Shown here one piece after another: positions 26,279-31,123 of a stretch of DNA of 64,000 nt; positions within the stretch are counted from its first letter, which is position 1; each line of letters begins with the position of its first letter. The translations under genes and the position numbers were made by a program. The notes beneath the pieces were generated by a model that saw nothing but the letters and a program-made list of their open reading frames with translations, was not told where the DNA came from and did no database searches. The stretch comes from Plasmodiophora brassicae (taxonomy: Eukaryota > Endomyxa > Phytomyxea > Plasmodiophorida > Plasmodiophoridae): positions 124,001-188,000 of the forward strand of contig JASFAU010000002.1 in the NCBI GenBank assembly GCA_039704465.1, written 5' to 3'.

Positions 26279-27408
26279 ATGGTGCGGGCATGTCAGGTGG
26301 CGTTACGCCTGCGCGGTCGGTCCGTCGTCAGCGACGTCCTGGTGCGGGATGGCGACCCGCGCCGGTCGGCGCATACGATCGTCATGTTCCCGGGTGAGTC
26401 GCCGGATCGCTGCGTTCATATTGCCGCGCTCGTGTCGACGCTATTGGTGTGCTGCAGGCAACCCATCTGTCCTGCCATATTACATGAGGTTCATGCAGCT
26501 GATCGTGAACGGCATCCCCGATTACGTGCCAATGCACACAGGTGAGCGGGCCTGTCAAAGGACGCTCCATCGGCGTTGACGGGTCTGGCTCAGTGGGTCA
26601 TGCGGGGTTCAGCAATGTCGACCATAATCGCGGCGAGCTGTTCGATCTGGACGACCAGATCGATTTGAAGATCGCGTATTTGGATGCCCTTCTGGAGAAG
26701 TCGCCGGCATCGCGTTTCATCCTGATGGGGCATTCCGTCGGCTCGTACATGGTTCAGCAACGCCTACGATGCCATGTCACATTGCTCAGCATCACGACCA
26801 TGTAGGCCATGGAGGTGCTGTCTCGAAGACCCGATTTGCCTGTCGATGGCAACGTGTTCTTGTTTCCGGCGTTATCGCAGCTGGAAGTGGCATGGCCGAT
26901 CCGCATACTGCAGGTTCCTGTCGCGCGCGAAGGAATCGGCTTCCTCGTGAACGTGTTGCCCAAAACGGTTAAGTCCCTGGTTATCGGTATGATCCCATCG
27001 GTTCGCGACGAAGCCATCATGCTCGGTGAGCACTTGAACGCGCATACAGGTCGGGTTTTGTACTCGCGTTGAACGCTCCGCCTCTGATTGCTCGTGGCAG
27101 TACGAAACGGACTGGCGCTTACTCGTGACGAGCTTGGCAAGATCCGCCAGCTGCCCGAATCTAGGTTGGCGACCCTGAAGCGCCATGCGTCCAAATCGTT
27201 GTATATCTTTACGCCGTTCGATGAATACGTGCCCATGCATCTGGTGGATGACCTGCGAGCAGCGGTCCCCGACGCTAAGCACCATGTCTTCTCGCACTCT
27301 GATGGCGTTCGCCACGCGTTCGTCCTCACGGACAGCGACGTTGTCGCTCAGCACGCGTTGATGCATTTGTCCGAGTTCTTCCCTGAGCGCGCCCCCGCCG
27401 ATGCATAA
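26279..27408 (+). CDS. LDAH-type lipid-droplet-associated serine hydrolase
   Basis: Five exons: 26279-26393, 26458-26541, 26594-26751, 26806-27049 and 27101-27408; 302 residues. Alpha/beta-hydrolase fold with the LDAH oxyanion motif VMFPGNPSVLPYYMRFM (assembled across the first intron) and nucleophile elbow RFILMGHSVGSYM, where Ser in GHSVG is the expected nucleophile. Near the end, FTPFDEYVPM likely carries the acid Asp and HSDGVRHAFV the catalytic His. LDAH proteins sit on lipid droplets and influence triglyceride or sterol-ester turnover. The stretch 26865-26925 could hide an additional intron, but the frame stays open without it. 106 bp separate it from the P450-lipoxygenase gene on the same strand. 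Confidence 0.85.
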
Positions 27409-27514: not shown

Positions 27515-30500
27515 ATGGTGCTCGCTGCTGACGATGGCGCCAGCCCGATCCCGCCGATGGCCGCATGCCCGAACATGGTGCCGGTCACGATTGCTGCCAT
27601 CGTGTTCGGATGGTGGCTGGCGCCGATCGCTGCGATCCTGGGCGTCCTCGAGATGACCACGAAAGGGTGGTTCGTGTCGCGCTACCAAGCCGCCGTGTGG
27701 ATCAGCCAGGTCAAGGTCTGGCAGCTGGAACGGTACCCGCGCTCCTCCTTCATCTGGGCCATCACCCGCCTGCTCGACACGTACCACGCCGTCCAGTTCC
27801 CGTTCCGCACGCTGGACCCAGGCAACCTGGGCGCCAGGAACACCCCGCGCACGCCAGGCGACTACATGGTCCTGTTCGACGGCGTCTTCGCCCTCTCGAA
27901 CCACGATGCCGCCGCGCTGATCATGTCGGATCGGCAGGCGCGTTGGGCGAATCTCGTCACGTTGCCGATCGCCGTCCCACAAGTCCTCGATCCTCGAACG
28001 TTGATCTTCCTGTCGAGCCCGTCCGCGTCGCACGACCGCCAGCTGGCCGCCATCGCCTCGCTGCTGTCGTCACGTGTTCCTCGGGTCGCCCTGCTGGGCG
28101 ATCGGTTCCGACGCTGGTCCAGCCAGCGACACGCCACCTGGGACCTGCGTGTCACGCGATTGACCGTCGACGTCCTGTTCAAAGCGGTTCTGGACATAGA
28201 CCTGACGAACCACGAGCTGGATATGTGCAACGTGTACAAGATGATGATCGGGCTGATTGGCCTGCCGGGGTCCCTGTACCGCGTCTTCTTCGACCTGCCG
28301 ACGTACCCGATCATGTACGCGAGGGACCTGCTGGCCACGGCGATAGAGACGCGGGCACCCAAGTCGATCTTGAGGGACCTGGCGGCCAGCGGTGCGTACC
28401 TGCCCAACGAACGCATCGCTCTGCACGTCGTCGACATGGTCCTGTTCGCCGGTACCATCGGGACGGGCGCCGCGCTGGGCGCTTGCCTGAAACGACTGAA
28501 CGAGAACGGCGACCGTGTCGGCATGTACCTGGCGAACCCGTTGCACTTCATCTACGAGAGCTTGCGCCTCGATCCGCCTGTCGGTGCGATCCACACGATC
28601 ACGACCGAGGCGGCCACGCGAGTGCAGGTCAACGGCAGGCCAGTGTGCCTACCCGCAGGCACACAGCTGTGCGCCTCCATCGAGGACGCGAATCGCGACC
28701 CGAAGGTCTGGGGGTCGAACGCCAACACCTTCGACATGCAGCGCGACTATAGCCGCCTCCTGACGTGGGACGGCCTGCAAGGCAATGGACCGAGAACCTG
28801 CCCTGGACAGTCGCTCTCCATTGCGATCTGCACACAGGCGCTCAACGCCTACGTCCGTCGCGACAAGGCGATCACGTACAAGATTACGATCGCCAACGAG
28901 GACGTCCTGGCAGTGCCCTTGCTGAGCAAGTCGGTGTACGTGATCCTGGAGGGCGACGCGGGCACGTCGGACAAGATCCACGTGCCGGCGGCGTCGACGG
29001 CGACGTACAGGTCCACGGTCGACCTGGGCCGGGTGCTTCGCGTTCAGATCGGGTTCGCCGGCTGGGGCATGCTATCGCCGAGATGGTTCGTGAAGTCGGT
29101 GGACGTTCGTCGGCAGGACCCGGTGTCCACGTGGCGGTTCCCGGTGAATCAATGGCTCGGTGCCAGCTCGCCTGTGCTGTCCGCCCTCGAGGGCACGCCA
29201 TCGCTGTTGACAGCGTCGAGGCTTGAGAACAGGTTCCGGGACGAGGAGATGGCCGCTCGTCGGCAGGCGTACCGTTTCGCCGACAAGCAGGCTCTGGTGG
29301 GGGAATGGGGTACGGCTCTGCCGGCGTCAGTTGCAACGACAGCGCTCGGGCGGGTCCCTTCGATTCCCTTGCAGGAGCGCCCGCCTTTGAACATGCTGTA
29401 CTCGTCCGTGAAGGACCTGTTGCAGGACGTCGCGCGGCGTGCCCGCATGCTGGGCGACAAGATGACCACCCTGGACGACTATCGCCAGGAATGTCTCCGC
29501 GGCAGCGACGTCTTCCGAGATCAGGACATTCTCCCCGCGTACCCGCTTCAGAACTGGCGAACAGATGAAGAGTTCGGCAGACAGCGCCTCGAAGGTTTGA
29601 ACCCGATGACAATTCGCGTGGTGTCAAGTTTGCCAGAGTAGGTGACAGCAGGTCGCGCGTCTCCCGTGCTCTGACCTGCGCGAACAGATCATTCGGTGTT
29701 ACGTCGGCGATGGTGGAACCGTTCTTGCCTCCAAACCGGACGCTTGACCAGGAGCTGGACGCCAGGCACCTGTTCATGCTGGATCACGACTGCATCGAGG
29801 GGATGGATGGAGTGCACTTCGCCGGCGTTCGCTACCTGGGCCAGCGGCCGCGTCGGTTCCTGTCGGTGCCATACTGCCTGCTGCATGCCGACATGGCCAA
29901 CGGGTACAAGCTGAGGCCGATCGCCATCCAGCTGTCCCGTCAGCCGGGGTCCTTGGTGTACACGCCAGCGGATGGACCATTCGACTGGCTCATGGCGAAG
30001 CTCGTCGTCAACAACGCCGACTTTGTCGTTCACCAGTTCAAGTACCACGTATGTTTGTTTGGCAACGCTGGCCGAGCACCGTGTTCTAAATCTGCTATCA
30101 GGCGTTGACTTGTCATCTCGCACCCGAGGCGATTGTCTGCTCGCTGCAGAGGAACCTACCCAGTGTGCACCCGGTCTACAAGCTTCTGCGCCCGCATCTG
30201 AACGGGTTGGCGTTCATCAACAACCTCGCCCGGGGCTTGCTCTTTATCACCGACGACAAGTACCGGACGCCGCTGACAGTCATGGGTGACATCACGACAG
30301 TGGGAGCGACTGGCAATTCCAAGGTCGCCATCAGCGCGTACCGCTCGTATTCGTACGCGGAGACCGACTTCAAACGGGCCATGGGGAGCGCTGGCTTCAC
30401 GAAGCCGTCCGGCGTCACCGAATTCGCGTTCTTTGACGACGGCCTGCTCGTCTACGAGTAACAATGGGTCGTGAAGGCTGAACAGCAAAGTCTTACGTTG

Positions 30501-31123
30501 AGCGCAGGGCCATTGAGGAATACGTCGGCGACATGATCGGCCTGTGGTACACGGACGACAAAAGCGTGACGGGTGACGAGGACCTTCAGCGCTTCTACGA
30601 CGAGTTGGCCAGCGTCGGCCAGCTTCGAGGTGTGCCAAACATCACAAGGGGAGTCGTGCCGCTCCGAGAGTTCTGCGTCACGTGCATCTTCACCGCTAGT
30701 GCCTTGCACGCGGCACTGAACTTCTCCCAGATCGACTACGCTGGCATCGTCTGCAACTAGTACGTCGCATGCAAACCTGGTCGACGCGCGACTGACTCGT
30801 TCAATAGCCCGGCAGCCTTGTTCCGAGCGCCGCCTCTAGAGAAAGGCGTTGTCGATGAGCAATTCATCCTGGATATGCTGCCGCGGGGCGAAGGCTTTCT
30901 GACGCAGATCGGTCTGATGTCGTTTCTCTGCCAGAAAACGACGGACCTGCTGGGACGTTTCCGGTACCCGACGTTCACCGATACTGCGAGCTTGGCCGCG
31001 ATCGCCAAGTTCAACGAACGGCTGCAGAGGGTCGAGTCGATCATCACAGAGCGCAACGCGAAACGCGCTCTTCCGTATCTATACCTGCTGCCGTCTCGTA
31101 TCCCAAACTCGACGGCCATCTGA
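27515..31123 (+). CDS. Cytochrome P450 - PLAT - lipoxygenase fusion protein
   Basis: Five exons: 27515-29637, 29688-30048, 30102-30457, 30508-30759 and 30808-31123; introns 48-53 nt; 1135 residues. A hydrophobic N-terminus (about 20-46) may anchor it. P450 domain about 60-450: helix-I LFAGTIGTGAALG without the usual acid-Thr pair, ExxR at E348-R351 (YESLRLDP), haem Cys429 in GPRTCPG. A PLAT-type beta sandwich about 455-570. Lipoxygenase about 575-1135: iron ligands His823 and His828 (VVHQFKYH), His1014 and Asn1018 (SALHAALNF) and the C-terminal Ile1135 (RIPNSTAI). P450s lacking the acid-Thr pair (CYP74, thromboxane synthase) rearrange hydroperoxides, so this enzyme probably peroxidises a fatty acid and converts the product in one polypeptide. 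The P450 and lipoxygenase parts share one uninterrupted 2.1-kb exon. Confidence 0.93.

Follow-up and report, generated by a model that had tools for sequence, protein, structure and literature searches.

Does a gene of Plasmodiophora brassicae encode a cytochrome P450 and a lipoxygenase as two halves of one protein, and if so, what might that protein make? The question arises from the initial annotation of a 64,000-nucleotide stretch of contig JASFAU010000002.1 (here called the window), which read a haem-thiolate P450, a PLAT domain and a complete lipoxygenase in a single polypeptide. Overall, we conclude from its sequence and its relatives that the P450-lipoxygenase gene is real and conserved, and that it is a new domain combination among the known fused oxylipin synthases. 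We also consider it likely that the protein is a single-chain oxylipin synthase, in which the hydroperoxide made by the lipoxygenase is rearranged by the protein's own P450 without a reductase.

The locus lies in an assembly of 25.3 Mb and 21 contigs, and positions 27515-31123 (+) splice into one 1135-codon frame plus stop, giving a single protein that runs, from N to C terminus, through a hydrophobic segment, P450, PLAT and a complete lipoxygenase (Table 1). The splice sites are predicted, having been read from the genomic sequence, and define five exons separated by four introns, each GT-AG and 48-53 nt long. For intron 3, a different acceptor that would leave an intron of 28-33 nt was rejected as it breaks the frame, whereas the 50-nt version keeps the frame and, by reading, restores a lipoxygenase motif. 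GC by codon position in the exon 1 frame is 0.62/0.47/0.84, which fits the expectation for coding sequence. Just upstream, and read in the same direction, lies a lipid-droplet-associated hydrolase (PF10230; 26509-27408, +), with its last frame finishing at 27408, 106 nt short of the fusion ATG; the downstream neighbour, on the opposite strand, is PIG-Y (PF15159; 31144-31365, -).

Table 1. Features of the P450-lipoxygenase gene, in window positions
Feature	Position	Strand	Remarks
Whole fusion gene	27515..31123	+	ATG to TGA, 1135 codons
Exon 1 (2123 nt): N-terminal segment, P450, PLAT, lipoxygenase start	27515..29637	+	residues 1-707 and 2 nt of codon 708
Hydrophobic N-terminal segment	27575..27658	+	residues 21-48; Kyte-Doolittle 19-residue windows > 1.6
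I-helix motif FAGTIGT	28445..28465	+	residues 311-317; without acid-alcohol pair
ESLRLDPPV, ExxR and PPV motif	28556..28582	+	residues 348-356
Haem-ligand Cys429 in GPRTCPG	28799..28801	+	Pfam and alignment
PLAT domain	28931..29164	+	residues 473-550, Pfam
Intron 1, 50 nt, GT-AG	29638..29687	+	holds in-frame stop directly behind exon 1; P0001 stops at the same place
Exon 2: lipoxygenase	29688..30048	+	iron ligands H823 (30031-30033), H828 (30046-30048)
Intron 2, 53 nt, GT-AG	30049..30101	+	
Exon 3: lipoxygenase	30102..30457	+	A871 in NNLARG, aligned to 5-LOX stereo-control residue
Intron 3, 50 nt, GT-AG	30458..30507	+	
Exon 4: lipoxygenase	30508..30759	+	iron ligands H1014 (30707-30709), N1018 (30719-30721)
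Intron 4, 48 nt, GT-AG	30760..30807	+	
Exon 5: lipoxygenase C-terminus	30808..31123	+	terminal Ile ligand I1135 (31118-31120), stop

A protein search in which 8000 candidates were scored listed 19 matches, three of which span the P450. One of these, P0001, is the same exon in another assembly (708 residues, 698/708 identical; none of the 10 differences is a stop). The other two are P0002, a 1179-residue MMETSP transcript ORF labelled type:complete (33% identity over 90% of the query), and P0003, a 1082-residue JGI protein (29% identity over 95%). The window protein, P0002 and P0003 align end to end, P0002 matches P0003 at 3e-141, and the N-terminal P450 halves alone show pairwise homology at 5e-40 and 1e-39; the fusion is seen to be transcribed in one of the three organisms (P0002). 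The remaining 16 matches were made through the lipoxygenase side only, Archangium enzymes first. In a lipoxygenase tree of 19 sequences (P0005, P0008, P0010, P0013, P0014, P0016-P0019, L020 and L022 were left out, mainly as near-duplicates or fragments), the three fusion domains form one clade (94) that is sister to human 5-LOX (100), with the bacterial lipoxygenases and two further P. brassicae lipoxygenases placed elsewhere; because the fusion domains form a single clade, the three proteins fit a single origin. A search that used all three full-length proteins as its profile (8000 candidates scored) returned P0001 only and missed the known members P0002 and P0003, and is therefore uninformative on the absence of more members. 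A viral origin of P0003 was considered and set aside: neither viral contigs (queried with the three-sequence alignment, P0003 and P0002) nor phage records held a relative, negatives that are weak because these scans rest on few short peptide patterns.

The lipoxygenase half is well defined by its domains. Pfam matches PLAT on exon 1 (1e-5, residues 473-550, above cut-off) and the lipoxygenase start (1.2e-3, residues 680-707, below cut-off), and exons 2 to 5, scanned singly, match Lipoxygenase only, with E-values of 0.055, 1.4e-7, 2.8e-13 and 0.024, two of the four passing the cut-off alone. Against the PDB, residues 472-1135 of the spliced protein match 5-lipoxygenase at 3.8e-78. The iron ligands H823, H828, H1014, N1018 and the C-terminal I1135 are a complete set, invariant in all three fusion proteins. 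By its PLAT and Lipoxygenase domains and these five ligands, the C-terminal half is a PLAT-type lipoxygenase, and the initial annotation's reading of PLAT and a lipoxygenase core with all iron ligands in one spliced 1135-codon frame was borne out by the Pfam and PDB matches and by the two full-length relatives. Under the Ala/Gly rule for lipoxygenase stereochemistry, Ala points to an S product; since Ala871 aligns with Ala410 of 5-LOX, the product probably has S stereochemistry.

The P450 half is more divergent. Pfam matches p450 on exon 1 at 1.1e-7 (residues 345-445, above cut-off), and the motif E348-R351 and Cys429 were found where they had been predicted. According to the initial annotation, homology searches showing that the N-terminal 450 residues are not P450 would refute the reading; instead, when the N-terminal domains of the three fusion proteins were combined in a profile, the best 60 of 257 PDB chains at E <= 1 were P450s throughout, the first at 5.3e-8. 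Invariant in the three-protein alignment are G425-x-R427-x-C429, E348xxR351, DPPV (353-356), LFAGxxGT (310-317) and, in the lipoxygenase half, A871. By its GxRxC haem loop and ExxR motif, we conclude, the N-terminal half is a member of the cytochrome P450 superfamily. The Pfam p450 match is above cut-off in two of the three proteins (window exon 1 and P0003). NCBIfam P450 models give no match to window exon 1 but do match P0003, with CYP119 at 3.3e-9, well short of the cut-off set for that model; P0002 has neither a Pfam P450 match at E <= 0.1 nor an NCBIfam P450 match, and owes its assignment to the alignment with the window protein and P0003. All three proteins have a hydrophobic stretch (Kyte-Doolittle) close to the N-terminus, and residues 21-48 of the window protein are likely a membrane anchor. 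In an AlphaFold model of full-length P0002, PLAT and lipoxygenase are good and the P450 is poor (mean pLDDT 59, with the P450 half mostly < 50). A likewise poor model of window exon 1, made with added P450 rows (mean pLDDT 53), includes a long helix (298-329) at the place expected for the I-helix. Foldseek with this model returned P450s in 47 of the best 50 rows (E 7e-8 to 1e-6), with a TM by query length of only 0.22-0.29, a result that is partly circular because the model's alignment contained other P450s.

To what class might this P450 belong? The I-helix reads AG[TV][IV]GT in all three fusion P450s, whereas monooxygenases carry AGx(D/E)T(T). Assignment to CYP74 was tried and rejected: as defined in the accessible part of PMC8124189, that clan has an I-helix groove Asn and a nine-residue insertion in the haem-binding region, and both are absent here. 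GxRxC is uninterrupted in the three fusion P450s, with no insertion in P0003 and 3-5 residues before GxRxC in the other two. At the same time, the PPV motif and perhaps an ERxR-type conservation are held in common with the CYP74 clan (plant AOS and HPL, animal and algal EAS): DPPV, a CYP74 feature that is not exclusive to CYP74, is present in all three proteins, as are E348, R351 and R410, the last of which is, by reading, a candidate third member of the CYP74 ERR triad. Differences in the I-helix and haem loop set the two apart, as does the fact that CYP74 enzymes are stand-alone proteins; in substrate and reaction type, the fusion P450 and the CYP74 clan are probably alike. Among 8000 candidates of 250-790 residues, too short for the fusions, a P450-only profile found no close stand-alone relative; its matches were P0001 and, at E 0.28-2.1, three P450s of Streptomyces.

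In the reading that we favour, the PLAT-lipoxygenase half would oxygenate a polyunsaturated fatty acid to a hydroperoxide, which would pass to the membrane-tethered P450 half and there, with neither reductase nor O2, be rearranged to an allene oxide, an epoxy alcohol or a cleaved product. We infer independence of a reductase from the I-helix without an acid-alcohol pair, as in peroxide-rearranging P450s, and transfer inside the chain from the fusion of the domains; channelling to a rearranging P450, as predicted in the initial annotation, would rest on these two features together. The Asn that lies over the haem in plant AOS and PGIS is missing here, which counts against a rearranging P450. 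Nonetheless, we do not see this as an obstacle. According to the accessible part of a 2026 JBC review (PMC13049297), the residue over the haem is non-polar in thromboxane synthase and 8S/9S-AOS, which do cleave peroxides, and several fusion P450s can do without the Asn. The P450 half could instead be an ordinary monooxygenase, one that uses O2 and an external reductase to hydroxylate a lipid, either the lipoxygenase product or some other. Its hydrophobic tether is like that of microsomal P450s, some monooxygenases can lack the acid or the Thr, and the best PDB matches of the N-terminal-domain profile are monooxygenases, with CYP74A among the matches at 1.5e-5. We nevertheless regard a monooxygenase as unlikely, given that the acid-alcohol pair is absent from all three members, at 24-30% identity, with the flanking AG and GT invariant, and that the P450 is fused to a peroxide-making enzyme.

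Less probable still is a catalytically dead P450 half that serves as a membrane anchor or regulator of the lipoxygenase. Such a role would suit a domain so divergent that Pfam barely detects it, but none of the three proteins departs from the Cys ligand, ExxR, DPPV and GxRxC, despite the low overall identity, and one would not expect a dead domain to retain its haem ligand. We give least credence of all to the possibility that P450 and lipoxygenase are separate genes, an assembly or gene-model artefact, or a pseudogene. The splice sites are, to be sure, predicted from sequence alone; even so, P450, PLAT and the lipoxygenase start occupy one exon, as the initial annotation had pointed out, and this exon recurs, free of stops, in another assembly. 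The annotation's further contention that this is no misjoined gene pair holds as well, since the recurrence of the exon and two unrelated relatives that align end to end, one of them a transcript, exclude a misjoin. A single-chain oxylipin synthase remains our preferred reading.

Several known systems resemble such a synthase in part, and the precedents cited in the initial annotation (coral and cyanobacterial AOS-LOX, fungal haem-dioxygenase-P450) proved correct. The catalase-related AOS (or hydroperoxide lyase)-LOX proteins of soft corals and cyanobacteria likewise carry an N-terminal hydroperoxide-rearranging haem enzyme and a C-terminal lipoxygenase in one chain, and coral AOS-LOX entries in the PDB match the fusion lipoxygenase half at 7.1e-63 to 8.1e-64. 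Their haem domain is catalase-related, however, whereas here it is a Cys-ligated P450 with a membrane segment, and exon 1 holds no catalase-like domain (Pfam, E <= 0.1; p450, PLAT and Lipoxygenase only). The coral enzymes, moreover, make 8R products (PMC5617202, in the part accessible), whereas the stereo residue here is Ala and an S product is expected. The fungal DOX-P450 fusions (LDS family, Ppo proteins; CYP6001 and others) also unite in one chain a dioxygenase and a P450 that is self-sufficient and rearranges the hydroperoxide, as the accessible text of PMC13049297 describes, but theirs is an N-terminal haem peroxidase-COX-type dioxygenase, in place of a C-terminal non-haem-iron lipoxygenase with PLAT; Pfam (E <= 0.1) matched no haem peroxidase or dioxygenase domain in any of the five exons. 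Closest in domain order, though unnamed in the initial annotation, is CYP5619 of Saprolegnia diclina, in which P450 likewise precedes dioxygenase (PMC4486971, accessible part). Its partner is a haem peroxidase/dioxygenase rather than a lipoxygenase, a word that does not occur in the main text of that paper.

Bacteria may offer a two-gene counterpart. A bacterial fusion was sought and rejected (the fusion alignment against genome contigs gave 96 pattern matches and no relative), and a lipoxygenase-enriched alignment against genome contigs found eight bacterial PLAT-lipoxygenase loci and no fusions. At two of the eight, in Corallococcus (L016, 1931-5860) and Archangium (L020, 4752-8228), a P450 frame stands right behind the lipoxygenase stop codon, in the same frame, and its I-helix reads FGGVFSSSTT or FGGAFSSSVT (FGGxFSSSxT), with no acid-alcohol pair. 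One more locus has a classical P450 (HETT) 1.65 kb away, and the other five have no P450 in the flanking DNA examined. The myxobacterial pairs thus set a PLAT-lipoxygenase beside a P450 without the pair, as here, but as two genes, lipoxygenase first, and with a CYP3A-like P450. Because the partner P450s resemble CYP3A, we take the pairing as analogy, not descent; by that analogy, the pairs appear to divide the same chemistry between two genes. We found no paper on such a pairing in the open-licence PMC literature.

The same literature yielded no report of a P450-lipoxygenase fusion, nor is one mentioned in the accessible portions of PMC8124189, PMC10813956, PMC13049297, PMC11719350 and PMC4486971. 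Since the fused protein also occurs in two further organisms, it looks like a real, undescribed one-piece oxylipin enzyme. Peroxide-making and peroxide-rearranging enzymes have been joined several times in evolution, as catalase-type haem with lipoxygenase or haem dioxygenase with P450. In the plant jasmonate and animal CYP74 routes, P450 and lipoxygenase make up the two halves; their combination is absent from the literature found. If confirmed, it would add a third independent solution and a P450 family that lacks close stand-alone relatives, and would allow a compact test of whether the intermediate is passed inside the chain. We lean, with some reserve, toward the broader view that P450-lipoxygenase synthases are an undescribed enzyme class with its own P450 family and a single origin, found in distantly related protists, that would need no reductase to turn a polyunsaturated fatty acid into a finished oxylipin within a single chain, the product being perhaps of a compound type new to these organisms. 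The fusion also indicates that the oxylipin pathways of free-living protists are under-described.

The rest of the P. brassicae genome provides a comparison. Its 17 P450 matches, grouped by hand, give 11 P450 loci besides the fusion, and the I-helix was read in seven of them. Four of these controls have the classical acid-alcohol pair (AGQETT, AGQETS and, twice, AGHETT), and three an Asn-type I-helix, two of them CYP7/CYP8-like on C20 and one of FN type on C8. The C20 locus (L030, G000:C20:116800-124000) consists of two adjacent P450s, both with the I-helix Asn; the one tested is nearest to CYP7A1, cholesterol 7-alpha-hydroxylase (5.5e-19), and to prostacyclin synthase. The C8 locus (L034, G000:C8:726500-729500, minus) is a stand-alone P450 with the I-helix FNGVAG, for which the top-scoring P450s of the PDB are prostacyclin synthase (1.1e-4) and CYP74A AOS (3.5e-4), a designed protein scoring higher through a short stretch; it is a candidate CYP74/CYP8-type enzyme. 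Two intron-rich lipoxygenase genes on C7 (L008 and L009, G000:C7 at about 401-403 kb and 419-421 kb) are closely paralogous to one another and distant from the fusion lipoxygenase. They were rejected as further fusions, there being no P450 in the 9.5 kb around each and the best profile match outside the window reaching 3.8 bits. The alpha-tubulin and actin of this genome match animal, amoeba and other chains with about equal strength, and the genome also encodes a putative EF-like protein (L015). Among other lipoxygenases, that of Chloropicon primus (P0007, 1905 aa) has a very long N-terminal part to which Pfam assigns no domain; its first half is hydrophobic, and the region before PLAT appears, by eye only, somewhat catalase-like.
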